Source of the DNA: Deltaproteobacteria bacterium ADurb.Bin207
Lineage (GTDB): Bacteria; Myxococcota_A; Polyangia; Polyangiales; Polyangiaceae
Direction of reading: 5' to 3'
DNA length: 64,000 nucleotides
Assembly (NCBI GenBank): GCA_002070115.1
Contig: MWCO01000008.1
Coordinates: 62,001 to 126,000 of the forward strand
The notes below the pieces were generated by a model, which was given only the letters and a program-made list of their open reading frames with translations, searched no databases and was not told the DNA's origin. Below, piece after piece: positions 37,051 to 50,817 of the stretch. Numbering within the stretch: position 1 is the first letter of the stretch; every line of letters begins with the position of its first letter. The position numbers and the translations under genes are program-made.

Positions 37051-37071
37051 CTTTACGTGTATCGATTTACC

Positions 37072-40000
37072 ATGCTTGTTGACGATCCTCTCTGGTACAA
37101 GGACGCCATCATCTATCATCTTCATGTCAAAGGTTTTTTTGACAGTCAGGGGGATGGGTTTGGCGATTTTCCGGGTCTTTCGGCGAAGCTCGACTATATC
37201 CAAGAGCTTGGGGCGACGGCGATCTGGCTTCTTCCCTTTTATCCTTCCCCCCTTCGGGACGATGGCTATGACATAGCAGATTACTTCGATGTTCATCCTC
37301 GTTACGGGACGCTGCGGGACTTCAAGGCATTTGTCCGTGCGGCCCATCGTCGTGGGTTGCGTGTCATTACGGAATTGGTCATCAACCATACGTCGGACAG
37401 GCATCCTTGGTTTTTGGACGCGCGACAACCGGGGTCATTGCGCCGGGATTATTATGTATGGAGCGACCGGGATGATCGGCTGGGGGAGGTACGGATCATT
37501 TTCAAGGATACGGAGCAAAGCAATTGGGCGTGGGATCCGGTGGCGGGGCAGTATTATTGGCATCGATTTTTCTCCCATCAACCGGATCTCAACCACAACA
37601 ATCCGAAAGTCGTGCGGGCCGTTCTCAAAGTGCTTCGATTCTGGTTGGATATGGGGGTCGACGGGCTTCGACTCGATGCGATTCCGTATTTATGCGTGCG
37701 TGAAGGAACGAATTGCGAAAACCTGCCGGAAACCCACGCGGTGATTCGTCAGATCCGGGCCGAGGTCGATGCCCATTATTCCAATCGTATGCTGCTGGCC
37801 GAGGCCAATCAATGGCCCGAGGACGTGATTCACTACTTCGGGAATGCGGATGAATGCCATATGGCCTTTCACTTTCCCCTCATGCCACGAATCTACCTGG
37901 CCGTGGCCCAGGGGGACCGCGCCCCCATCACAGATATCTTGCGCCAGACTCCCGCCATCCCCGACTCTTGCCAATGGGCCCTTTTTCTGCGCAATCACGA
38001 CGAACTGACGTTGGAAATGGTGACGGAACAAGAGCGGGCAGCCATGGTAGCCCATTACGCCAAAGACCCCACCATGGTCTTGAACCTTGGGATTCGTCGT
38101 CGATTGGCTCCTCTCATGGATAACGATCGACGCAAAATCGAGCTATTGCATGCTCTATTGCTATCGATGCCCGGTACGCCCATCCTTTATTATGGGGATG
38201 AGTTGGGCATGGGAGACAACGTATATATTCGTGATCGGGACGGGGTTCGTACGCCGATGCAATGGAGTTCGGACAGAAATGCAGGCTTTTCCCGAGCCGA
38301 CCCCCAACAGCTTTACCTGCCAGTGATATCGGATCCGATTTACGGCTATCCCGCGGTGAATGTCGAAGCGATGGAGCGAACGCCAACCTCCTTGCTCCAT
38401 TGGATGCGGGCGATCATCGCCGTCCGTAGGCGTCATCGAGCCTTCGGGCGGGGTGGTTTGCACCTGCTTTATCCATCCAATCACCATATCCTGGCCTATC
38501 TTCGGCACCACGACGAAGAACTGCTGTTATGCGTGTTCAATCTTTCTGCTTCAGCCCAGGCGGTCGAATTGGACCTTCATGAGCATGTGGGGCGGTATCC
38601 GGTGGAATTGCTCGGAGGTTCCACCTTCCCTCGCATTGGGCAACTGCCGTATCTGCTCACCTTACCCGCCTATGGCTACTATTGGTTTCGGCTTTCCTCG
38701 CCGCATCAACCGCCTCTGCCCATGCCCGACAGACCCGATTTACCCTTTTTGGTCATCGGAAGGCAGGCCCGGGTGGACGACGTCCTCGGCCCTGTTTTCC
38801 ATGATATCCTTGGGGATTTTCTTCATCGACAACGCTGGTTTCAGGCCAAGGGGAGCGTTATCCTGGCAATCCAAGCTACCCTCGATCGAGTGTGGGAAAC
38901 AGGACCCGGCGAATGGCTCTGGGCGATTGTCCGTGTCGAAGTGCAGAACCAGGCTCCCCAACGATATTCATTACCTCTCGCCGTATTGTGGGACGAGCAA
39001 GCGGAATCGGTGAAACAATCGGCGCCCGCCCGAATTCTGGCCAAAATTCGCAGAGGTCCAAGAATCGGAGTGGTTTGTGATGCCTACCTGGACCCGCAAT
39101 TTGCCTTGCAAATGTCGAGTGCTTTCGATCGAGCCGAGCATCTTACCCTCGCGGGGGGCACACTCCGCTTCCTTGCCACTGCAGCTTACCAATCACCCGT
39201 CCACCTGCAGCCAGCGCAGGTCGAGCCTCTCGATGTCGAACAAAGCCATACCTCCGTACGCCTCGGCTCCTTGCAAATCTACAAGAGTTACCGTAGGTTA
39301 CAGCGACGTGGCCGCAGTGAGGTGGAAATTGGCAGGTATCTGACGGAATCCTCTCCTTTTCCCAACACCGCACCGGTTCATGGTCATGTGGAGCTTTCAG
39401 ATATCGATGGGGAAAACCAGACCATCGGGATTCTGGTGGGCTACATTCCCAATGAAGGAGACGCCTGGAGTTATACGTCGAATTATCTCGAACACTATGT
39501 GGAAGCGCGATTGGCCGACGAAGAGGGTCATGGCAAACCGACCGAGCGGCATGGGGCCTACGCGCCATTCGCCAAAAACCTTGGGAAAAGGACGGGACAA
39601 CTGCATCTGGCCTTGTCTCGACCCACGGCGGATCCCGCGTTTTCGCCTCGACCCATGACCGGCGAGGACGTTTTTCGTTGGGCTTCTTTCGTGCGGCAGG
39701 ATGCGATTCGAACCGTGGATACGGTGGAGGCATCGCTACATCGTCTTGACGAAAGCGCGCTGCCCTATGCACAACGTTTGGTGGAAAGGAAGCGGGAGCT
39801 GTTGGAGCGTCTCGAACGGGAGGCGCCGCATCCCTGTGAAGGCCTATGTTGTCGTTTTCATGGGGATTTTCACCTTGGCCAGGTTCTCCTTTCCCGGGGG
39901 GATGCTTATATCATCGACTTCGAGGGGGAGATGGCTCGACCCGAGGGAACTCTCGAAGAGAAGCATTCACCGCTGCGCGACGTGGCAGGAATGCTTCGCT

Positions 40001-40329
40001 CCTTCAATTATGCGGCCATCGTGGCATTGGCAGAGATATCGGCAAGTCTCGGACATGCGGTGCAACTCGAAGGGATTGTCCGAGCGTGGGAGCAAGAGGC
40101 CAGGCAATCGTATTTGGAGGGTTATCGAGCCGTGACCCGGGGCCGCGGGTTGGTGCCTGACAACCAAGAGGCATTTTCCTATCTTCTCGAATTGTTTTTG
40201 TTCGAAAAAGCTCTTTATGAAATCAATTACGAGCTGAACAGTCGTCCTCGCTGGGTTCTGGCACCGCTTCGCGGTGTGCTCGCCCTGCTTGACCATCCTG
40301 GCTTTCCCCAAGAGCCATCTTCGAAATGA
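37072..40329 (+). CDS. treS: Trehalose synthase-maltokinase fusion
   Basis: 1085 residues. The N-terminal GH13 domain interconverts maltose and trehalose. It has WYKDAIIYHLHVKGFFDS at the start, the nucleophile Asp202 in GLRLDAIPY, acid Glu244 in AEANQWPED and Asp310 in RNHDE. The C-terminal half (about 570-1085) is a maltokinase of the aminoglycoside-phosphotransferase fold, with HGDFHLGQ (930-937) and IDFEGE. The fusion would feed maltose-1-phosphate to a GlgE-type pathway; no GlgE is in the window. The ATG at 37072 is preferred, but a GTG at 37057 is in frame and no good ribosome site precedes either. Its stop overlaps otsB by ATGA. Confidence 0.95.
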   Translation: MLVDDPLWYKDAIIYHLHVKGFFDSQGDGFGDFPGLSAKLDYIQELGATAIWLLPFYPSPLRDDGYDIADYFDVHPRYGTLRDFKAFVRAAHRRGLRVITELVINHTSDRHPWFLDARQPGSLRRDYYVWSDRDDRLGEVRIIFKDTEQSNWAWDPVAGQYYWHRFFSHQPDLNHNNPKVVRAVLKVLRFWLDMGVDGLRLDAIPYLCVREGTNCENLPETHAVIRQIRAEVDAHYSNRMLLAEANQWPEDVIHYFGNADECHMAFHFPLMPRIYLAVAQGDRAPITDILRQTPAIPDSCQWALFLRNHDELTLEMVTEQERAAMVAHYAKDPTMVLNLGIRRRLAPLMDNDRRKIELLHALLLSMPGTPILYYGDELGMGDNVYIRDRDGVRTPMQWSSDRNAGFSRADPQQLYLPVISDPIYGYPAVNVEAMERTPTSLLHWMRAIIAVRRRHRAFGRGGLHLLYPSNHHILAYLRHHDEELLLCVFNLSASAQAVELDLHEHVGRYPVELLGGSTFPRIGQLPYLLTLPAYGYYWFRLSSPHQPPLPMPDRPDLPFLVIGRQARVDDVLGPVFHDILGDFLHRQRWFQAKGSVILAIQATLDRVWETGPGEWLWAIVRVEVQNQAPQRYSLPLAVLWDEQAESVKQSAPARILAKIRRGPRIGVVCDAYLDPQFALQMSSAFDRAEHLTLAGGTLRFLATAAYQSPVHLQPAQVEPLDVEQSHTSVRLGSLQIYKSYRRLQRRGRSEVEIGRYLTESSPFPNTAPVHGHVELSDIDGENQTIGILVGYIPNEGDAWSYTSNYLEHYVEARLADEEGHGKPTERHGAYAPFAKNLGKRTGQLHLALSRPTADPAFSPRPMTGEDVFRWASFVRQDAIRTVDTVEASLHRLDESALPYAQRLVERKRELLERLEREAPHPCEGLCCRFHGDFHLGQVLLSRGDAYIIDFEGEMARPEGTLEEKHSPLRDVAGMLRSFNYAAIVALAEISASLGHAVQLEGIVRAWEQEARQSYLEGYRAVTRGRGLVPDNQEAFSYLLELFLFEKALYEINYELNSRPRWVLAPLRGVLALLDHPGFPQEPSSK

Positions 40330-41123
40330 TTGCAGGATTACCTACGTTTTGGACCATGCTAGATGCCAGTCCGCATCGTCTTCTGGCTCTGGACTACGAT
40401 GGCACCTTGGCGCCTTTTCGGGTGGACCGTAGGCAAGCGTTTCCCTTGCCTGGCGTGGTGCAAGCGCTCGAGGCCCTTGCCTCGCGAACCGACACGAAAC
40501 TGGCGATCATCTCGGGCCGTCCGTTGCGGGATTTGAAGAAGCTGTTGCGGCTTTCGGAGGGTGCGGGCCTCACCTGGGTGGGAAGCCATGGCTTCGAGGG
40601 GCAGCGAGCCGATGGGGAAACCTGGACGCGGCGTCTTACGGCGATGCAATCGGAAAACCTGCTGAGCGCACGACGGGCCGTGGAAGCTCTTGGTCATGGC
40701 GCCAGGCTGGAGAACAAGCCTTCGGCGCTTGCTTTTCACACGCGAGGCATGGAGTCCGAAGAGGCAAAAAGCCTAGAAAAAACAGTATATTCCGTCTGGA
40801 CGGCTCTTGCGGATACCGCCGGACTTCGTATTCATGCTTTCGATGGAGGCGTGGAAATCCGCGTCACGACCGCCGACAAAGGACAAGCCCTCAAGGAGTG
40901 GGTGAATCAGCAGGCGGCAGGAGCTTTCGTGGTCTATGTCGGCGATGACAGGACTGACGAAGACGCTTTCGAGGTCGCTCAGGGGTTTGGGGGTATTGGG
41001 ATTCACGTGGGTTATGGGGAGACCTGCGCCTTGGGCACACTAGCTGATTGTGAAGCGGTATTGGCCTGGCTACAACGTTGGGCGAGGATGCCAACCTATG
41101 GAAAGGTTGGGGGAATTACATGA
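40326..41123 (+). CDS. otsB: Trehalose-6-phosphate phosphatase
   Basis: 265 residues of the HAD superfamily. The nucleophile motif LDYDGTLAP has Asp23 and Asp25. Motif II is IISGRPL, and the C-terminal YVGDDRTDEDAF supplies the magnesium-binding aspartates. It removes phosphate from trehalose-6-phosphate, the product of OtsA. Start and the preceding treS stop overlap as ATGA (40326-40329), and its own stop overlaps the otsA start in the same way (41120-41123). Both junctions point to translational coupling. Confidence 0.95.
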   Translation: MIAGLPTFWTMLDASPHRLLALDYDGTLAPFRVDRRQAFPLPGVVQALEALASRTDTKLAIISGRPLRDLKKLLRLSEGAGLTWVGSHGFEGQRADGETWTRRLTAMQSENLLSARRAVEALGHGARLENKPSALAFHTRGMESEEAKSLEKTVYSVWTALADTAGLRIHAFDGGVEIRVTTADKGQALKEWVNQQAAGAFVVYVGDDRTDEDAFEVAQGFGGIGIHVGYGETCALGTLADCEAVLAWLQRWARMPTYGKVGGIT

Positions 41124-42565
41124 ATGGCTCGCGGGATTTTCGACGATTGGTGGTGGTATCGAATCGACTTCCGATCGTATTGGGGCGAGATGAGAAGGGA
41201 CAATGGGCGGCGCGTCCGGGAGAAGGAGGATTGGTGACGGCGTTGGCGCCGGTTCTTCGCAATCGTGGAGGCGTGTGGATTGGTTGGCCGGGCACGGATG
41301 ATAGGGAGGCGCTGGACAAGGTGAAGGCAACATCCGCGCAAGCGGGTTATCAATTGCTTCCCGTGCCGCTGACGGCGGAGGACGAAAAAGGGTATTATCA
41401 TGGTTTTTCCAATGAAACGATTTGGCCATTATTTCATGACCTGGTGGGTCATTGTCGGTTCGAACCGGCTCATTGGCGAAAGTATCAGGAGGTCAACCAG
41501 CGATTTGCCCGAACGGTGTTGGAGACTACCACCCAAGAGGATTACGTCTGGGTCCAGGACTATCATTTGATGTGTTTGGGAAGTATGCTTCGAGAAAAGG
41601 GGGTGAAGCGTCGCCTCGGGTTTTTCTTGCATATCCCTTTTCCCGCGGTGGATATTTTTTCCAAATTACCATGGCGCAAGCAGATCCTCGAAGCCCTGTT
41701 GGCCTACGATCTCATTGGGTTTCAAACCGCCCGAGACCGTCGCAATTTCATCCAATGCGTGCGCAGCCTCCTTCAGGGAGTCCAACACGTTGGGCGAGGA
41801 TACCTCGGAGCGATTCGGGTGGGAGAAAGACAGGTTCTCGTGGGTCACTTCCCCATCGGAATCGATGCCAAACGCTTTGCGTCGGAAGCGGCTTCGGCTC
41901 CGGTGGCTGAGCAGGCCTGGTATATTCATGAATTGCTTCCCAAAAGACAGATTGTGCTCGGCATCGATCGACTCGACTATACAAAAGGAATTCCCGAACG
42001 ATTACGTGCGGTTGGCAACGCGCTGGAGCGTTTTCCGGAGTTGCATCGGCAGCTTACGTTCGTGCAGGTGGTGGTGCCGAGCCGGGTCAACGTGGGGGAT
42101 TATCGTCAACAACGCAGAACGATCGAGCAACTCGTAGGTAAAATCAATGGAAAATTCACGACCGCGGGCTGGACTCCCGTCCACTATATCTATCGTGCCC
42201 TTTCCTGGCATGAATTACTCGCCTATTACCGCACGAGTGAGATCGCACTTCTGACACCTCTCAAAGACGGCATGAACCTCATTGCCAAAGAGTATTGTGT
42301 TTGTAGTGTCGAGTCAGGCGTGCTCATTCTCAGTGAATTTGCCGGCGCTGCCCGGCAACTGCAGGGAGCCTTGTTGGTCAATCCCAACGACATCGAAGCC
42401 ACCGCGGATGCCCTTCGGCAAGCGTTTCACATGCCTGCCGCCGAACGAAAGCGTCGCATTCGAAAGCTTCAGCGGGAAGTGGATCGGCATGACGTGTTTT
42501 GGTGGGTCGATTTATTCCTGAACGCCGCGTTTGGACGTCGCCTTGCCGATTTTCCGCTTGCATGA
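41120..42565 (+). CDS. otsA: Trehalose-6-phosphate synthase
   Basis: 481 residues, a GT20 glycosyltransferase that joins UDP-glucose (or another NDP-glucose) and glucose-6-phosphate. Visible motifs are the N-terminal VVVSNRLP, then WIGWPGT, VQDYHLM, FLHIPFP, GIDRLDYTKGIPERLRA and the C-terminal LLTPLKDGMNLIAKEY. The ATG at 41120 follows GGGGGA closely and overlaps the otsB stop by ATGA. The frame is open to 41078, inside otsB. Together with otsB it completes the OtsAB route to trehalose, alongside TreS. Confidence 0.97.
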   Translation: MNGSRDFRRLVVVSNRLPIVLGRDEKGQWAARPGEGGLVTALAPVLRNRGGVWIGWPGTDDREALDKVKATSAQAGYQLLPVPLTAEDEKGYYHGFSNETIWPLFHDLVGHCRFEPAHWRKYQEVNQRFARTVLETTTQEDYVWVQDYHLMCLGSMLREKGVKRRLGFFLHIPFPAVDIFSKLPWRKQILEALLAYDLIGFQTARDRRNFIQCVRSLLQGVQHVGRGYLGAIRVGERQVLVGHFPIGIDAKRFASEAASAPVAEQAWYIHELLPKRQIVLGIDRLDYTKGIPERLRAVGNALERFPELHRQLTFVQVVVPSRVNVGDYRQQRRTIEQLVGKINGKFTTAGWTPVHYIYRALSWHELLAYYRTSEIALLTPLKDGMNLIAKEYCVCSVESGVLILSEFAGAARQLQGALLVNPNDIEATADALRQAFHMPAAERKRRIRKLQREVDRHDVFWWVDLFLNAAFGRRLADFPLA

Positions 42566-43900: not shown

Positions 43901-44551
43901 TCAGTGTTTTTTGAGTCGGGTGATTCCCGGATGTGTGGGATCGCCTGGCTCATGACGCGGATTGATATTCTTACGCGTGCCATCTCGCCCCGTGAACGAT
44001 AGCAACAGGTCCTTGTCGAAAAGGAATTGGTCGCGAGAGTCATAGGGCACGGCGTGTTCACCTGTGTCCATGCGAATCGCATCACAGGGACATGCCTCGA
44101 CACAGAAGCCGCAGAAGATGCATCGGAGTTCATCGATCACGAATCGGGCGGGATAACGCTCGTAGCCGCGTCGTTCATGCCCTTCCGGATACTCCGCCGG
44201 TTCGATGAAAATGCATTGCGCCGGGCAGGCGGTAGAACAGCAGAGGCAGGCCACGCAGCGGGGCGACCCATCCTCCCGGACCGTGAGACGATGCAGGCCT
44301 CGGTTACGCAATGGGTAGGGTCGCTTTTGTTCCGGATAGGAGATGGTATTGATGCCATCATCCAACGCTTCGAGCACGGGGTCGTTGCGTTGCCCGAGCA
44401 TGAGTTCCTTGGTGTTCTGGAAAAAGTGCTTCATCAGCACTTTCATTCCTTTGGCTGTTTCGGGGATATACGCTTGAACGCCAAGGGTCCGTGGTGTTCG
44501 TCGGGTTTTCTTCCCGACGATTCCTCCACCTGATTTTTTGGGGTCAGCCAT
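43901..44551 (-). CDS. nuoI: NADH-quinone oxidoreductase subunit I
   Basis: 216 residues, a little longer than E. coli NuoI (180) because of a basic N-terminal extension and a C-terminal tail. Two 4Fe-4S ferredoxin motifs are intact: CVACLCCSTACPAQC and CIFCGFCVEACPCDA. These hold clusters N6a and N6b, which pass electrons to NuoB. It is the last gene of the visible nuo operon; a convergent lipoprotein gene lies 65 bases beyond, so nuoJ-N must be elsewhere. Confidence 0.96.
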   Translation of the reverse strand: MADPKKSGGGIVGKKTRRTPRTLGVQAYIPETAKGMKVLMKHFFQNTKELMLGQRNDPVLEALDDGINTISYPEQKRPYPLRNRGLHRLTVREDGSPRCVACLCCSTACPAQCIFIEPAEYPEGHERRGYERYPARFVIDELRCIFCGFCVEACPCDAIRMDTGEHAVPYDSRDQFLFDKDLLLSFTGRDGTRKNINPRHEPGDPTHPGITRLKKH

Positions 44552-44602: not shown

Positions 44603-46396
44603 TCACGCTTGCATGGGGGAGTGCCTGGTGCCTCCCTGTTCCGCTACCATTTTCGCGGTGGAGGTGAGCACGACGCGATGCTTTTTCGCCGGTGCGAGCA
44701 ACCATCGAGCCATGGCAACGATGGCCACCACAAAAGCAATCATCGTGGTGAGTTGGGTGAGATCCGCGGCCACGCCGAGAGCGTTTTTCGCCATGAGACT
44801 CGCGTTATCGATGATGAGCAAGAGGATCGCGGTCACAAACACGTTCGCAATGGATAGGGGCAAAAGCATCCGCCAGCACATTTTCATGAGTTGGTCATAG
44901 CGGAAGCGCGGCAAGGTCCAGCGCACCACCACTTGTAGCCAGGCGAAAGCCGCCACTTTGAGGAAGAAAGCGACGACCTGCAAGGCCACCACCGAGCCAT
45001 GGGTCATGGCGTGCTTGAGCAACACCGCATCGCCAATGGCGATGGTCAAGCCATCCCGATGCAAAAAGGGAAGATTCCAGCCGCCAAAAAACAGAGTGAT
45101 CATCACGGCCGAGGAGGTGACCACCTCGATGTACTCCGAGAAAAAGTACATGCCGAACTTCATGCTCGAGTATTCGGTGAAGTAGCCAAGGATTTCACTC
45201 TCTCCTTCCGGCAAATCGAAAGGTATCCGTTTGGTCTCCGCGGTCGCGGCAATGAAGAACAGGAAAAAAGCTAGCGGTTGGACAAACACGCCCCACGCGT
45301 TGTTTCCTTGCCACCGCACCATGTCATCGAGCCGGAACGTCGAATAGATCATGAGCAACCCGATCAACGTCATGCCAAGGGTGATTTCATAGGACACGAG
45401 CTGACCGGCGGCGCGAAGGGCACCGAGAAGGGAATACTTGTTATCGCTTGCCCATCCACCGATGGCAGCGCCCAAAATCCCGATGCCGGACACCGCAAAG
45501 ATGAAGAGGATGCCGATGTCTAAGTTAGCGATTTGCATAGGGATTCCTGCCTCGGCGCAAACTCCGTCGCGCGATACCACAGGCAGAATTTGTGTCCACT
45601 GGATGCCGCCTTCCGCGTTTTTGGCAAAGCACAATACATCGCCAAAAGGTACGACCGCCATGACGACCAACGGTGGGAACATACCGAGCATGGGCCCAAT
45701 CGAATGAAGGAGGCGGTCGCCCCGTTTGGGCATGAAGTCCTCCTTCCAAATCATTTTGATGCCGTCGGCCATGGTGTGAAGCAAGCCGATCACCCGAAGC
45801 TTGAAGCCTTCCTTCGGGACTTTCGAAGCGGCTAGCAGGCCGCAAGCGGCGATGAGCAACGCCAACACCGAGGGCGCTGCAAGAAACAACGCAGGCTTGA
45901 TCGAAGCCGCCCATTCGGTGCCGCGCAGGGCATACCGAAGCACGAATACCGCGATATGAGCGACCAATCCGAGATAGAAGACACGTCGAGGGTCGCGCAC
46001 TTGCTCAGCAAGAAACGCTTCCAAAGCATTGCTGGAGCCGCGACGAACGGCCCAGGTCGTCAGCATCGCGAGTACGGTCCAGGTGATGAAAACGGAAAGC
46101 TCCGCGGTGAGCAAGATGCGTTCCGTCATCCGAAGCGCACCAGCGACGGTATCGGGAAACGACGTAAGCCAGCCCCAGGCACCGATACCAGCGGCGGCCA
46201 GCAGGGCAGGACCCGCAAACATGCCTCGGGCAAGGGTTGGCGGAAGAAAGAATCGCGCTCGATTGGGTCCGATGCGGTCTTGCATCATCGAACTCATTCG
46301 ACGGTCATTCCAGGTCAATGCCCCGGCGAAGGCCAGGCAGAACACCAGGATGAACGCGATCTTAAGGAGCGTGAAGATCAGCTCGACGATGGTCAT
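44603..46396 (-). CDS. nuoH: NADH-quinone oxidoreductase subunit H, enlarged
   Basis: 597 residues against about 325-350 for typical NuoH. TM1, then DRIGPNRARF (about 40-49), and later GLLHTMADGIKMIWKED (204-220), NKYSLLGALRAAGQLVSYE and GYFTEYSSMKFGMYFF, are all recognisable. Between GPNR and GLLHTMAD lie about 157 residues where E. coli has only a few. This block holds about four hydrophobic helices (near 57-79, 95-117, 138-158 and 168-190). The C-terminus also has about 75 extra residues with another helix. NuoH forms the quinone-binding chamber. The ATG at 46396 lies 10 bases after nuoG. Confidence 0.93.
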   Translation of the reverse strand: MTIVELIFTLLKIAFILVFCLAFAGALTWNDRRMSSMMQDRIGPNRARFFLPPTLARGMFAGPALLAAAGIGAWGWLTSFPDTVAGALRMTERILLTAELSVFITWTVLAMLTTWAVRRGSSNALEAFLAEQVRDPRRVFYLGLVAHIAVFVLRYALRGTEWAASIKPALFLAAPSVLALLIAACGLLAASKVPKEGFKLRVIGLLHTMADGIKMIWKEDFMPKRGDRLLHSIGPMLGMFPPLVVMAVVPFGDVLCFAKNAEGGIQWTQILPVVSRDGVCAEAGIPMQIANLDIGILFIFAVSGIGILGAAIGGWASDNKYSLLGALRAAGQLVSYEITLGMTLIGLLMIYSTFRLDDMVRWQGNNAWGVFVQPLAFFLFFIAATAETKRIPFDLPEGESEILGYFTEYSSMKFGMYFFSEYIEVVTSSAVMITLFFGGWNLPFLHRDGLTIAIGDAVLLKHAMTHGSVVALQVVAFFLKVAAFAWLQVVVRWTLPRFRYDQLMKMCWRMLLPLSIANVFVTAILLLIIDNASLMAKNALGVAADLTQLTTMIAFVVAIVAMARWLLAPAKKHRVVLTSTAKMVAEQGGTRHSPMQA

Positions 46397-46406
46397 GCTC
46401 TCGCCC

Positions 46407-48056
46407 TCAGGAATCCGTGGAGGCAGCAGCCTTATCGGCGGCTGTCTCGTTGGCATTCGCGTGATGATCGGCCGAAGCCGAGACGTTTATTTCAGGTTTG
46501 GGCAGGCAGGCTTTGGGCATTGCCTCCCGCAGCGAAGAAAGGGAATTCCAGGCCGGTTCGTGTCCCAACCCTACGCATACTTCACGAACGAACTTCCAAC
46601 CTGGCTGGCAATCGTCGGCTCCAGGATAAGCGCGTCGACTCTCCTGGGCCATGCCCTTGGCATTGACATAAATGCCGTGGGTTTCCGCCCATGAGCTAGC
46701 GGGCAAAAAAACCTCCGCATGCTCGTGAAGAGCGCCCTGCCAACCACCGATCACCACAAGAGACGTAAGTTTGTCGAGGAGCGAATCGGCGTCGGCGGGC
46801 CAGACGCTTCCCATCACGATCAGATGCTTGATGGAACCGTCTTCCACGGCCCGGGTCAGTTCTTCGATACCCTTGAGTTCCCGTTCCGCGACCGCGCGAG
46901 CCCCTGCCGTGTTGGGGTTCTTATCGACATGACGCAAGATGTCATCGCCCTGCCCTTCAGGCTTTCCGATGAGGAACCAAGCTTGAATTCCCATGGCGCG
47001 GGCGAGCGTGACGAGCGCGAAGTTATCTTCGCAATTATGTTGCGCGCTCAACACGACGGCCGATTTGTCTTTGGGCGCATTTTTGATCAGTTCGACTGCT
47101 TTTTCGATCGCCTTGGCAGCGAGTGTGTGTTTGCCGCCGACACGGATCTGAGTTGCGCGCGCGTCGTGGGTGGCGTGATAGCTGAGCATGCCTTCATCGC
47201 ACATCCAATAGCTGTTGACGCTCTCATTGTCCCGCGGACGATAGCGGTAGGCGCGTTGTGTACGCGGGTCGAAGTCGAGCCATGCATTGCAGCCTGTGGC
47301 GCATCCCTGGCAGATCGACGGTGCGGAGCGCAAAAACCAGACGCGAGCTTTGAAGCGGAAATCCTTGGTGGTCAACGCGCCGACAGGACAAACAAGTTCC
47401 GTCATGAACGTATAGGGATGATCGAGTTCTCGCCCTGGAGAGACGGTGATTTCGTTGAGGTTGCCTCGTTCTCTCACGCTCAGGACCGGGTCTTTGGCTA
47501 CTTCTTCGCAGAAGCGGACGCATCTCGTGCAAATGATGCATCGTTCGGCATCGTAGACGATGGTAGGACCGAAGGAGACGGCCTTGGGTTTGTGGATCAA
47601 TTCATCGGGCATGCGCTTGGGGGTGCGCATATGGTCGAGCCAATAATCTTGCAGTTTGCATTCACCGGCTTGGTCACATATGGGGCAATCGACGGGGTGA
47701 TTGAGCAGCAAGAATTCTTGGACGGCGTGTCGCGCGCGTTTGACGTGTTCGCTGGTGTCGCTGAGCACTTCCATATTTTCGGTGACGGGCACCTGGCACG
47801 CGGGCTGCAGTTTGGGTTTTCGTGTATTGACGTACTGCCCGGTGGTTCGGTCGAATTCGAGGACATCCAGGAGCATGGGTGGTCTGCCGGGCGGTGGAAG
47901 GATTTCCACCAAGCACATTCGGCAGTTAGCGGCGACACTCAGTCCTGGGTGCCAGCAGTAATACGGGATATCGATACCCGCGCGATAGGCGGCACGCATG
48001 ATGGTGTCACCAGCTTCGAACGGGACGTCTTTGCCATCGATCTTGAAGGTCGGCAT
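46407..48056 (-). CDS. nuoG: NADH-quinone oxidoreductase subunit G, short form with N7 site
   Basis: 549 residues, much shorter than E. coli NuoG (908). The electron-transfer half is complete. The 2Fe-2S ligands are in CWHPGLSVAANCRMC plus CQVP. The HCCC cluster spans HAVQEFLLLNHPVDC with CDQAGEC. The 4Fe-4S ligands are in CIICTRCVRFC and CPVGAL. CQGCATGC, with a further Cys about 30 residues later, matches the off-pathway cluster N7. The molybdopterin-oxidoreductase-like part is reduced to about 280 residues. The ATG at 48056 gives the expected ferredoxin start. The tail is Ala/Asp/His-rich low complexity. Confidence 0.93.
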   Translation of the reverse strand: MPTFKIDGKDVPFEAGDTIMRAAYRAGIDIPYYCWHPGLSVAANCRMCLVEILPPPGRPPMLLDVLEFDRTTGQYVNTRKPKLQPACQVPVTENMEVLSDTSEHVKRARHAVQEFLLLNHPVDCPICDQAGECKLQDYWLDHMRTPKRMPDELIHKPKAVSFGPTIVYDAERCIICTRCVRFCEEVAKDPVLSVRERGNLNEITVSPGRELDHPYTFMTELVCPVGALTTKDFRFKARVWFLRSAPSICQGCATGCNAWLDFDPRTQRAYRYRPRDNESVNSYWMCDEGMLSYHATHDARATQIRVGGKHTLAAKAIEKAVELIKNAPKDKSAVVLSAQHNCEDNFALVTLARAMGIQAWFLIGKPEGQGDDILRHVDKNPNTAGARAVAERELKGIEELTRAVEDGSIKHLIVMGSVWPADADSLLDKLTSLVVIGGWQGALHEHAEVFLPASSWAETHGIYVNAKGMAQESRRAYPGADDCQPGWKFVREVCVGLGHEPAWNSLSSLREAMPKACLPKPEINVSASADHHANANETAADKAAASTDS

Positions 48057-48084
48057 GCGTAATTCCCCAGCGTCCACGGATCGC

Positions 48085-49296
48085 TCAGTGGTCGCACTCG
48101 CCTCCGATCATATTCATCGAGCCGAAGGTTGGAATGATATCCGGAACCATCTGCCCAGTGATCAATTTGCCCAGCCCACCAACAATGGCGAAGGAAGGTG
48201 GACGTATTCGAACGCGGTACGGAGTGCCGCTTCCATCCGAGATCACGTAAAAACCAAGCTCACCATTGGCCGCTTCCGTATAGCCATACGCTTCACCTTT
48301 CGGGACTTTCAACCCCTCCATGATCATTTTGAAGTGGTGAATCGTTGCTTCGATGGTGGTGTATACTTGCGGTTTGGGAGGCAAAACGGCTGAAGCATCG
48401 TATAGGTTGATCGGTCCGTCTTTCGGCATCTGCTCGACCGCTTGACGAATGATCCGAGCGCTTTGGTGAATCTCTTCGGCACGAACCATCAACCGATCGT
48501 AGTTGTCTCCCTCGTGGCCCACGGGCACATCGAAATCGAACCGGTCATAGACGAGATACGGGTGGGCTTTTCGGATGTCGTACGGCACCCCCGTCGAGCG
48601 CAGGCAAGGTCCGGTCCATCCGAAAGCGATGGCCTCCTCGGGGCTGATGCGCGCGACTCCCATGGTTCGATCCATGAAGATGCGATTGGTTTCGAGCAAC
48701 GAAATCCCTTCATCGCTGGCGGCAAGCACTTTGTCGAGGATGGCGAGCACGTGTTCTTGGAAGGTATCCGTAGGCGGATAGGCCATACCGCCGATGCGGC
48801 AGAAGGAATGGGTGACGCGCGCTCCGGTTTCTTCTTCGAACAGGTCGTAAATCATCTCGCGAGCGCGGGTCCACCACAGAAACGGCGTAAATGCGCCGAG
48901 TTCCATGGCCATGGCCGCGTTGCAAACGAGATGATCGGCCATACGCGCCAACTCGCCGAGGATGACTCGGTAATACTGGCAACGTTCGGGAACCTGCATT
49001 CCGCTGAGCTTTTCGACGGCGAGAGCGAATCCGACGTTGTTGAGCATCGGTGAGGAGTAATTGCATCGGTCTACGTAAGGGAAAACCTGAGCCCACGTTC
49101 CGCGCTCACAGCTTTTCTCGAATCCACGATGCAGATAGCCGATTTGCACATCGGCCTTGACCACGACTTCTCCGGACAGCTCCACGGCGATGCGAACCGT
49201 CCCGTGCATGGCAGGATGGGAAGGACCCATCATCAGTTGCATGGGGTCGGATGGTAGCTCGAGAGCGTTGTCTTCCACTTGGTCGAGCGGTTCCAT
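48085..49296 (-). CDS. nuoD: NADH-quinone oxidoreductase subunit D
   Basis: 403 residues, standard for NuoD, the 49-kDa-type subunit that shapes the quinone site with NuoB. Typical segments are present: MMGPSHPAMHGTVRI, GYLHRGFEKSCE, YVDRCNYSSPMLNN, EETGARVTHSFCRIGG, GWTGPCLRSTGVPYDIRK and the C-terminal IIPTFGSMNMIGGECDH. The start overlaps the nuoC stop by one base (TGATG). The usual 'GE(x)DR' end is replaced by GECDH. Confidence 0.97.
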   Translation of the reverse strand: MEPLDQVEDNALELPSDPMQLMMGPSHPAMHGTVRIAVELSGEVVVKADVQIGYLHRGFEKSCERGTWAQVFPYVDRCNYSSPMLNNVGFALAVEKLSGMQVPERCQYYRVILGELARMADHLVCNAAMAMELGAFTPFLWWTRAREMIYDLFEEETGARVTHSFCRIGGMAYPPTDTFQEHVLAILDKVLAASDEGISLLETNRIFMDRTMGVARISPEEAIAFGWTGPCLRSTGVPYDIRKAHPYLVYDRFDFDVPVGHEGDNYDRLMVRAEEIHQSARIIRQAVEQMPKDGPINLYDASAVLPPKPQVYTTIEATIHHFKMIMEGLKVPKGEAYGYTEAANGELGFYVISDGSGTPYRVRIRPPSFAIVGGLGKLITGQMVPDIIPTFGSMNMIGGECDH

Positions 49297-49883
49297 CAGT
49301 CCTCTTCTTTCATATAATCGAGGTGTTTTCGTCCGAAAACCATCCCCTCATCCGGTCCAAAGGGCGGAAGCTTTCCCAACACGTCCGGACCTTCCCGATA
49401 GGGAACCAGCGGTTGTGTTTTGGCGGCGGGATAATCCTTCCGAAGCGGATGCCCCTCAAACTCTTCGTAAAGCAAGATGCGGCGAAGATCCGGATGACCT
49501 TCGAAGCGGATACCGAACATATCGAACGTTTCCCGCTCGAACCAGTTGGCTCCGACCCAAACGGGCACCAGGCTGTCGATCACGGCTCCCTCGCAGTCTT
49601 CATCTCCCACGCGAGCCTTGATCCGCAAGCGATGCCCAAGTTCCAACGAGTTGAGATGGGCCACCACCTCGAGTCGCTGCGAGTCCCATATATGATCGAC
49701 CCCGCAAAGATCCACCAGCATGTTCATTTTGCATCGTGGATCGTCACGAAGAAAAGTCGCTACCTCGCGCCAATGTGCCGCATCGAGCACCGCGGTCTCA
49801 TCGCCGCATTGGTCGTGGGTGCTCAATACAATCGAACTACCAAAGCGCTCGGAGAGAATGTCGAGAAGCTTTTTCGCCATCAC
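49296..49883 (-). CDS. nuoC: NADH-quinone oxidoreductase subunit C
   Basis: 195 residues, the 30-kDa-type subunit of complex I as a separate protein (not fused to NuoD). The 30-kDa signature is visible: VPVWVGANWFERETFDMFGIRFEGHPDLRRI, followed by FEGHPLRKDYP. It sits in the peripheral arm against NuoD and NuoB. It lies 11 bases after nuoB and overlaps nuoD by one base. Confidence 0.96.
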   Translation of the reverse strand: MMAKKLLDILSERFGSSIVLSTHDQCGDETAVLDAAHWREVATFLRDDPRCKMNMLVDLCGVDHIWDSQRLEVVAHLNSLELGHRLRIKARVGDEDCEGAVIDSLVPVWVGANWFERETFDMFGIRFEGHPDLRRILLYEEFEGHPLRKDYPAAKTQPLVPYREGPDVLGKLPPFGPDEGMVFGRKHLDYMKEED

Positions 49884-49894
49884 CGTACTCCGGG

Positions 49895-50470
49895 CTATCC
49901 TGCTGAATCCTCAGTTTTTCGACGCAGATTCACCAGATTTTGAGCGGGATCGTGACGTGGTTTGACCACGCCGGGCGTGGTATCCATGCTCGCGATCTTG
50001 TCTTGTAACAAAAGCAGTCCGTCGAGCACCGCTTCCGGTCGCGGCGGACATCCAGGGATGTACACATCGACCGGCACGACTTTGTCGATGCCCGCCAATG
50101 TTGCGTAATTGTCGTAAAAACCACCGCACGACGCGCAGGTACCAAAGGCGATCACCCACTTGGGTTCCGTCATTTGTTCGTAAACGCGTTTCAAGATGGG
50201 CGCTTGCCGCTGACTGATGGTTCCCACGACCCAGAGCACATCGCTTTGACGCGGGGTAAACCGAGGCGCTTCCGCGCCAAATCGAGCCACATCGTAGCGG
50301 GGGCTTGCGGTGGCCATGAACTCCATCGCGCAACAAGCGGTGACGAATGGATACTGGAATAGAGAGTACTTTCGCGCCCACGCCAACAATTCATTGAACT
50401 TGGTCGTGGCAAACCCAGACTCACCCGCCTGAATGACCCGCGACGAGGTCGGCTTCGTCAGTTCTCCCAT
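49895..50470 (-). CDS. nuoB: NADH-quinone oxidoreductase subunit B
   Basis: 191 residues. NuoB holds the terminal cluster N2 next to the quinone site. Its ligands are seen in TACCAMEFM (tandem cysteines), GTCASCGGFYDNY and PGCPPRPEAVLDG. Its N-terminal coding sequence overlaps the end of nuoA by 13 bases. The C-terminus has an additional 20-residue hydrophilic tail. Confidence 0.97.
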   Translation of the reverse strand: MGELTKPTSSRVIQAGESGFATTKFNELLAWARKYSLFQYPFVTACCAMEFMATASPRYDVARFGAEAPRFTPRQSDVLWVVGTISQRQAPILKRVYEQMTEPKWVIAFGTCASCGGFYDNYATLAGIDKVVPVDVYIPGCPPRPEAVLDGLLLLQDKIASMDTTPGVVKPRHDPAQNLVNLRRKTEDSAG

Positions 50471-50817
50471 TCAAGCGCTCCTTTCCTCAATTCGTACACC
50501 AGCCCGATCAGCAACATGGCTAGAAACGCCGCGGCCATCAGAAGCCCCGCCCCGCCCAAGGACTTGAAGTGTACCGCCCAGAGGTAGAGAAACACCACCT
50601 CCACATCGAACACCACAAAGGAGATGGCGGTCAGGAAGTACTTCACGCTCATGCGCAAATGACTGGCCCCTTCCGAAGGATTGCCAGACTCGAAGGGCAT
50701 CATCTTCTCCGGAGACGGCTTCTTCGGCCCCAGATAGTGGCTCGCCAAGAAAAAGCCGATGACCACGACGAACGCGAGGGCAAACATCAGCAAGAGCGGT
50801 GCGTAGGTCTCAACCAT
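50458..50817 (-). CDS. nuoA: NADH-quinone oxidoreductase subunit A
   Basis: 119 residues, normal for NuoA. Three membrane helices are visible (about 5-27, 62-82, 88-110). The conserved segment MPFESGNPS follows the first helix, and RMSVKYFLTAISFVVFDVEVVFLYLW covers the second. It is the first gene of the operon nuoA-B-C-D-G-H-I. The start ATG at 50817 has an AGGAG ribosome site nine bases upstream that lies within a small hairpin. Confidence 0.97.
   Translation of the reverse strand: MVETYAPLLLMFALAFVVVIGFFLASHYLGPKKPSPEKMMPFESGNPSEGASHLRMSVKYFLTAISFVVFDVEVVFLYLWAVHFKSLGGAGLLMAAAFLAMLLIGLVYELRKGALEWEN

Follow-up and report, generated by a model that had tools for sequence, protein, structure and literature searches.

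The mouth of the quinone tunnel of complex I, the quinone bottleneck, is framed by the helices TM1, AH1 and TM6 of NuoH. One study reports it to be much alike across all 23 complex I structures compared and describes simulations where the mouth opens as TM1 straightens and both AH1 and the TM1–AH1 loop move (PMC8799541). For E. coli complex I, a further report describes a structure in which TM1 and part of the TM1–TM2 loop are disordered (PMC8357420). In mitochondria, the separate single-helix proteins NDUFA1, NDUFA3 and NDUFA13 place extra membrane helices around ND1 near the quinone portal, and NDUFA1 occupies the groove between TM1 and TM7 of ND1. The extra C-terminal helix of Thermus thermophilus Nqo8, a protein that lacks any insert between TM1 and AH1, sits where mitochondria have the helix of NDUFA13 and therefore offers a precedent for a NuoH supplying its own accessory helices (PMC8762328). 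No description of an insert in NuoH at the TM1–AH1 position was found in titles and abstracts of the open-licence literature.

The window analysed here, a 64,000-nucleotide stretch of a contig from Deltaproteobacteria bacterium ADurb.Bin207, carries complex I genes in the order A-B-C-D-G-H-I on the minus strand, from position 50817 down to 43901. The genes nuoD, nuoC, nuoB and nuoA (48085..50817; open reading frames and Pfam) lie upstream of nuoG (46407..48077; Pfam), which is followed by nuoH (44603..46396, stop codon included; open reading frame, PF00146, alignment and start codon) and nuoI (43901..44551; Pfam and NCBIfam). The nuoH frame encodes 617 amino acids from an in-frame ATG at 46456, within nuoG, or 597 amino acids from an ATG at 46396, which lies 10 bases past the nuoG stop codon and is preceded by GAGG; we take the latter as the start, since it agrees with the alignment.

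The product is a genuine NuoH of the NADH-dehydrogenase type of complex I and has the whole core fold, the conserved motifs and the operon order G-H-I in common with canonical NuoH/Nqo8/ND1 (PF00146). It scores 306.8 bits against PF00146 (curated cut-off 27), in two pieces covering profile positions 2–38 and 39/40–298, with an unmatched block between them. It falls below the NCBIfam equivalog cut-offs (NF004740–NF004745; best 268.2 against 305), and its operon neighbours NuoA, NuoB, NuoG and NuoI also stay below the cut-offs listed for them, so that the clade is divergent. The core fold of an AlphaFold2 model aligns with solved NuoH, NdhA and ND1 chains at Z 34–38 over 292–336 residues, including 8e9g_H (Z 38.4, 333 residues at 2.6 Å) and 4hea_H (Z 34.6, 319 residues at 2.3 Å). 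An alignment of 40 NuoH sequences including that of the window contains 36 invariant columns, among them E337, R390, D394, E397, E399, E401 and E408, residues that act in the quinone chamber and the E-channel. One strongly conserved loop is a residue shorter than usual, GESEI-LGYF (residues 399–404, 45185–45202) against GESEIVAGYF. A reading of this gap as a lesion of the quinone site was dropped, because 21 of the 150 rows that contain the segment lack the residue as well, insert-less NuoH from other phyla among them.

Where canonical NuoH has 4 residues between TM1 and AH1, the alignment gives 157 in the window protein, just as the first-pass annotation had reported for the stretch after GPNR. 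The insert comprises residues 47–203 (45788..46258) between GPNR and GLLH and replaces a loop of 4 to 13 residues. In the AlphaFold2 model, TM1 (residues 3–39, 46280..46390) is followed by the first strand (49–51, 46244..46252) of a small beta hairpin, which is interrupted by a bundle and completed by the second strand (198–200, 45797..45805); the two strands hold the ends of the hairpin and the bundle sits at its tip. Next comes AH1 (202–217, 45746..45793), the amphipathic helix of the quinone portal according to PMC8799541. The bundle itself is predicted to consist of four membrane-long helices, namely helix a (53–77, 46166..46240), helix b (84–119, 46040..46147, with the invariant Trp106), helix c (136–157, 45926..45991, with the invariant Gly143 and His147) and helix d (161–191, 45824..45916), together with a short helix (124–133, 45998..46027) in a positively charged loop that leads to the invariant Pro136-Arg137. 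The insert is thus modelled as four membrane helices and one short helix between TM1 and AH1.

The model, built from 40 sequences, reached a pLDDT of 83.7 and a pTM of 0.81, and ten-residue blocks of the insert scored 72–91, with one at 64, values to be read with just four insert-bearing sequences of the window's type behind this region. Modelled alone from those four sequences, the insert gave the same helices at a pLDDT of only 65.5. By plain hydropathy, three of the four helices pass the threshold in the window protein, and all four do so in the relatives L051, L035, L054 and L037; the first-pass estimate of about four hydrophobic helices is supported. Lysine and arginine average 4.3 in the loop between helices b and c and 3.0 in the C-loop, as opposed to 1.2 and 0.7 in the outside loops, and an even, inside-to-inside topology therefore fits.

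A frameshift, a chimeric contig or two joined genes might in principle produce such a protein, and the first-pass annotation had named a sequencing error joining two genes as a possible refutation. Nothing was found in favour of an artefact of this kind, to which we give practically no credence: a profile built from alignment A2, which comprises 19 four-helix blocks, finds a match in 64 of the 183 genomes of the window's order, a recurrence that excludes both chance and assembly error, and the block is also present in the named public records L073, L074 and L084. All 64 genomes belong to the window's family, probably the Polyangiaceae. Across the phylum, 21 of 377 genomes match, 20 of them in this family and the last by chance; an extra block common among known NuoH proteins, the other refutation envisaged, therefore applies only inside the family, as far as these genomes of the phylum show. 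PF00146 searched over 140 genomes of the phylum found a match in 124, and among the matches listed from outside the order the position is generally spanned unbroken, except for a match at a contig edge in G277. The four-helix block is limited to one family. Its gene keeps the same neighbours, with a nuoG-like frame upstream in 19 of 19 cases and a nuoI-like frame downstream in all 17 having enough flank. In G007, a genome listed as 97% complete, PF00146 matches nothing but the four-helix NuoH, which should therefore be the working subunit there.

Searches for relatives of the insert in other proteins gave no convincing match to any Pfam or PDB family. A domain common to another protein was not recognised, since each Pfam family matched at most two of the 19 members. 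The strongest individual match, to 7tm_3, came from one member (E 0.0004), and the window insert reached 13.8 bits at best against a cut-off of 28.7. The insert profile, compared with PDB sequences, retrieved no accessory subunit at an E value of 5 and only E. coli NuoJ, at a chance level of 0.2. The insert alone matched no PDB fold at E 0.001 or better (best 0.57), a search that says little because of the weak model already mentioned. A weak hit to a seemingly free-standing copy in genome G220 (E 7e-6) proved by eye to be an unrelated two-helix protein rich in alanine and arginine, and no internal duplication was detected between the first and second helix pairs (probability 0.2%). The four-helix NuoH is a new form of a known core subunit.

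The TM1–AH1 site varies in length well beyond the window. We aligned 71 NuoH frames of the window's own genome and of relatives, a part of the PF00146 matches from which several further full ones and the weak, hydrogenase-like ones were left out. The distance from GPNR to GLLH or GLLQ is 4 residues in 20 frames, 13–14 in 21, 70–105 in ten (counting the 105 of L049, an artefact that arises where a contig end truncates a four-helix type), 144–158 in 19 (157 in the window) and 190 in one; contig ends also cut L056, L058, L062, L065 and L066. A scan of 80 named public records, for which near relatives were picked and which is therefore uneven, contained canonical rows with 4 residues, a large group with 9 (Nitrospinota, Omnitrophota, Rokubacteria and others), several with 11–15 and three Omnitrophota loci with 23–24. 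Its only long loops were those of L082 (Sandaracinaceae, 88), L074 (Polyangia, 151), L084 (Polyangiaceae, 153) and L073 (Myxococcales, 158). With an even survey covering one phylum, these alignments mark the site as an insertion hotspot, with lengths among relatives of 4, 9, 13, 81–104, 144–158 and 190 residues. In its short form, GPNR, 13 residues and GLLH, the segment resembles a small hairpin.

Such a graded series at one site is what would be expected from neutral growth, in which a hairpin tip that tolerates insertions accumulates lipid-facing membrane hairpins with no role at the gate beyond not disturbing it. We regard this as the main rival to the functional reading given below and as rather unlikely, albeit a serious contender. 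Several observations point in its direction. On a tree of the core made without the insert columns (L049, L056 and L066 left out), the three length classes require at least nine changes, and sister lineages do without the insert. Blocks of different families cannot be aligned: the inserts of 81–104 residues in sister families (e.g. L082) occupy the same site and are hydrophobic, with two helices by eye, whereas past the first dozen residues they are unalignable to the four-helix block, and their NuoH lacks the C-terminal extension. Common origin of these two kinds of insert is thus unsupported (hhalign probability 0.6%). Insertion has also been nested, since the 190-residue insert of L048 (L048:5224-5793) consists of a block like that of L052 (95 residues; L052:5074-5358), from the same family, with about 95 more, largely hydrophobic residues near its start.

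The four-helix insert itself likely had one origin, a suggestion that follows from the likeness of the inserts. On the tree, the 22 four-helix rows lie on one side of a branch, with a support of only 19. The 70-residue insert of L060 may have been shortened from this type, as it is weakly matched by the four-helix profile (E 2e-4, with 30 sequences searched). Elsewhere in the protein, the PF00146 matches of G234, G255, G270, G274 and G294, from family f40 of the phylum, end at profile positions 248–268 in long frames, and there may be a further insertion site nearer the C-terminus.

The rate of change of the insert bears on neutral growth from both sides. Averaged over 153 pairs, the core shows 64% identity, the C-terminal part 42% and the insert just 33%. 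In 11 close pairs, some of which have members in common, and with L186 (one of 20 loci) left out as its start motif was not located, amino acid changes affect 270 of 1609 codons in the insert and 261 of 3350 in the core, and silent changes 196 of 1609 and 320 of 3350, respectively. Divergence faster than that of the core would suit neutral growth, and it is as compatible with a decoration that faces the lipid and is only loosely held as with a brace. Against neutral growth stand ten positions invariant in 19 inserts (A47, P52, P63, W106, G120, P136, R137, G143, H147 and R201), a conserved charge pattern, retention of the block in those 64 genomes, and purifying selection, the dN/dS of the insert being 0.15 (L199/L200), 0.22 (L193/L194) and 0.35 (L197/L198) in pairs with usable synonymous counts. 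The insert thus changes at roughly twice the rate of the core, yet remains constrained. Positive selection is not claimed: Nei–Gojobori ratios near or above 1 (up to 1.40, and about 1.6 for L192/L195) are confined to two genera in which third positions are 97–100% G/C, a composition that starves the synonymous count, and other genera give 0.15–0.35. Cys256 (45629–45631) and Cys280 (45557–45559), both within the long loop that follows TM2, are invariant in 18 four-helix NuoH sequences and might form a disulfide.

The insertion was expected from the outset to lie beside the quinone entrance, and the TM1–AH1 loop does connect two helices of the trio around the bottleneck and is the very loop that moves in simulations to open it (PMC8799541). 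We tentatively favour, at somewhat less than even confidence, the view that the insert serves in cis as an accessory membrane module, bracing TM1 and AH1 and giving the quinone portal its shape. Its four helices and one short helix would have grown from the tip of the small beta hairpin that links TM1 to AH1, and the bundle would pack beside these two helices, in the lipid before the quinone tunnel. There it could steady the mobile gate helices and shape the approach of lipid and quinone, acting as an accessory layer and not as a new catalytic element. This brace is favoured because a four-helix anchor on the TM1–AH1 loop, if packed nearby, must limit or steer the motion of the loop. The bundle would be a one-chain counterpart of the mitochondrial accessory helices that NDUFA1, NDUFA3 and NDUFA13 place around ND1 (PMC8762328), although those are separate proteins, whereas the insert is part of the NuoH chain, and no sequence similarity was found between them.

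Within the family, insert-less NuoH of the same subfamily has the GPNR and GLLH ends and the 100-residue C-terminus of the window protein but only a short, hairpin-like loop of 13–14 residues in place of the membrane bundle. The block is therefore not needed for catalysis as such. These relatives form matched pairs in one family, a 13-residue loop against a four-helix bundle, and provide material for testing the gate. The NuoH described here also exemplifies a core subunit that builds up an accessory shell of its own, stepwise and at a single site. The comparison of these relatives weighs against a changed use of quinone, which the first-pass annotation had suggested and in which the insert would adapt the tunnel entrance to another quinone: only the portal position speaks for this, and insert-bearing and insert-less family members have their core motifs in common, which makes it very improbable.

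The insert might instead be a docking platform, as the first-pass annotation had suggested: the bundle, or its positively charged cytoplasmic loop carrying the invariant Pro-Arg, would hold another protein, be it a cytoplasmic one, a supernumerary subunit or a partner in a supercomplex. The loop between helices b and c is indeed long (mean 24 residues), positively charged and closed by the invariant pair, but a net positive cytoplasmic loop is equally required by the topology and no candidate partner gene was met, without systematic search; we consider docking as a whole unlikely.

A bolder reading, which we hold to be a long shot, makes the bundle a protective gate, a fast-changing lid that passes quinone and excludes quinone-site poisons. 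Phenoxan from Polyangium is listed as a complex I blocker in PMC8401837, where thiangazole is also tied to Polyangium, so that producers of such poisons probably occur in the window's family. The roughly twofold faster divergence of the insert would suit such a lid; on the other side, insert-bearing genomes of 4–6 Mb occur that need not be producers, and insert-less sisters exist within the same family. If the protective gate were real, the TM1–AH1 hairpin would be a resistance hotspot at which helices have grown repeatedly within one order, and the lid could protect a producer or its neighbours.

The C-terminal extension is a feature separate from the insert, because it is common to the insert-less clade of the family. 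An extension had been noted before, at about 75 residues; it is confirmed, at a shorter length of about 67, since the window protein has 100 residues from FRYDQLMK onward and canonical NuoH about 33. It occupies 44606..44806 (minus strand; alignment and AlphaFold2 model) and contains one predicted helix, residues 534–567. Thermus Nqo8 likewise adds one more C-terminal helix to the NuoH core (PMC8762328), and the structural alignment to 4hea_H ends at model residue 531, short of the helix in the window protein.

The window's own genome encodes two complex I sets, both scattered over contigs C8, C10, C14 and C65, with several gene names assigned by eye. Set one includes the window operon and frames for E, F, J, L, M and N at the start of C14 (1–9 kb), which probably belong to the same set; set two has B, C and D on C65, H on C10, and I, J, L, M and N on C14 (75–84 kb). 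The second NuoH (L001:1348-3273) has the canonical 4-residue loop but is extended at its N-terminus by about 270 residues, in which PDZ is matched weakly and below the cut-off (PF13180, E 0.0022), and no other nuo genes were seen by eye in the surrounding 20 kb. Frame lengths suggest similarly long N-terminal parts in L004–L006 and L008–L012. The NuoL of the second set (L183:3764-6400) contains an insert that resembles a PEGA domain by eye, although Pfam at E 0.1 gave no PEGA match; with this insert and the extended NuoH, the second complex may bear extra soluble domains. Within the window, three adjacent plus-strand frames at 37057–42565 resemble a trehalose gene cluster.
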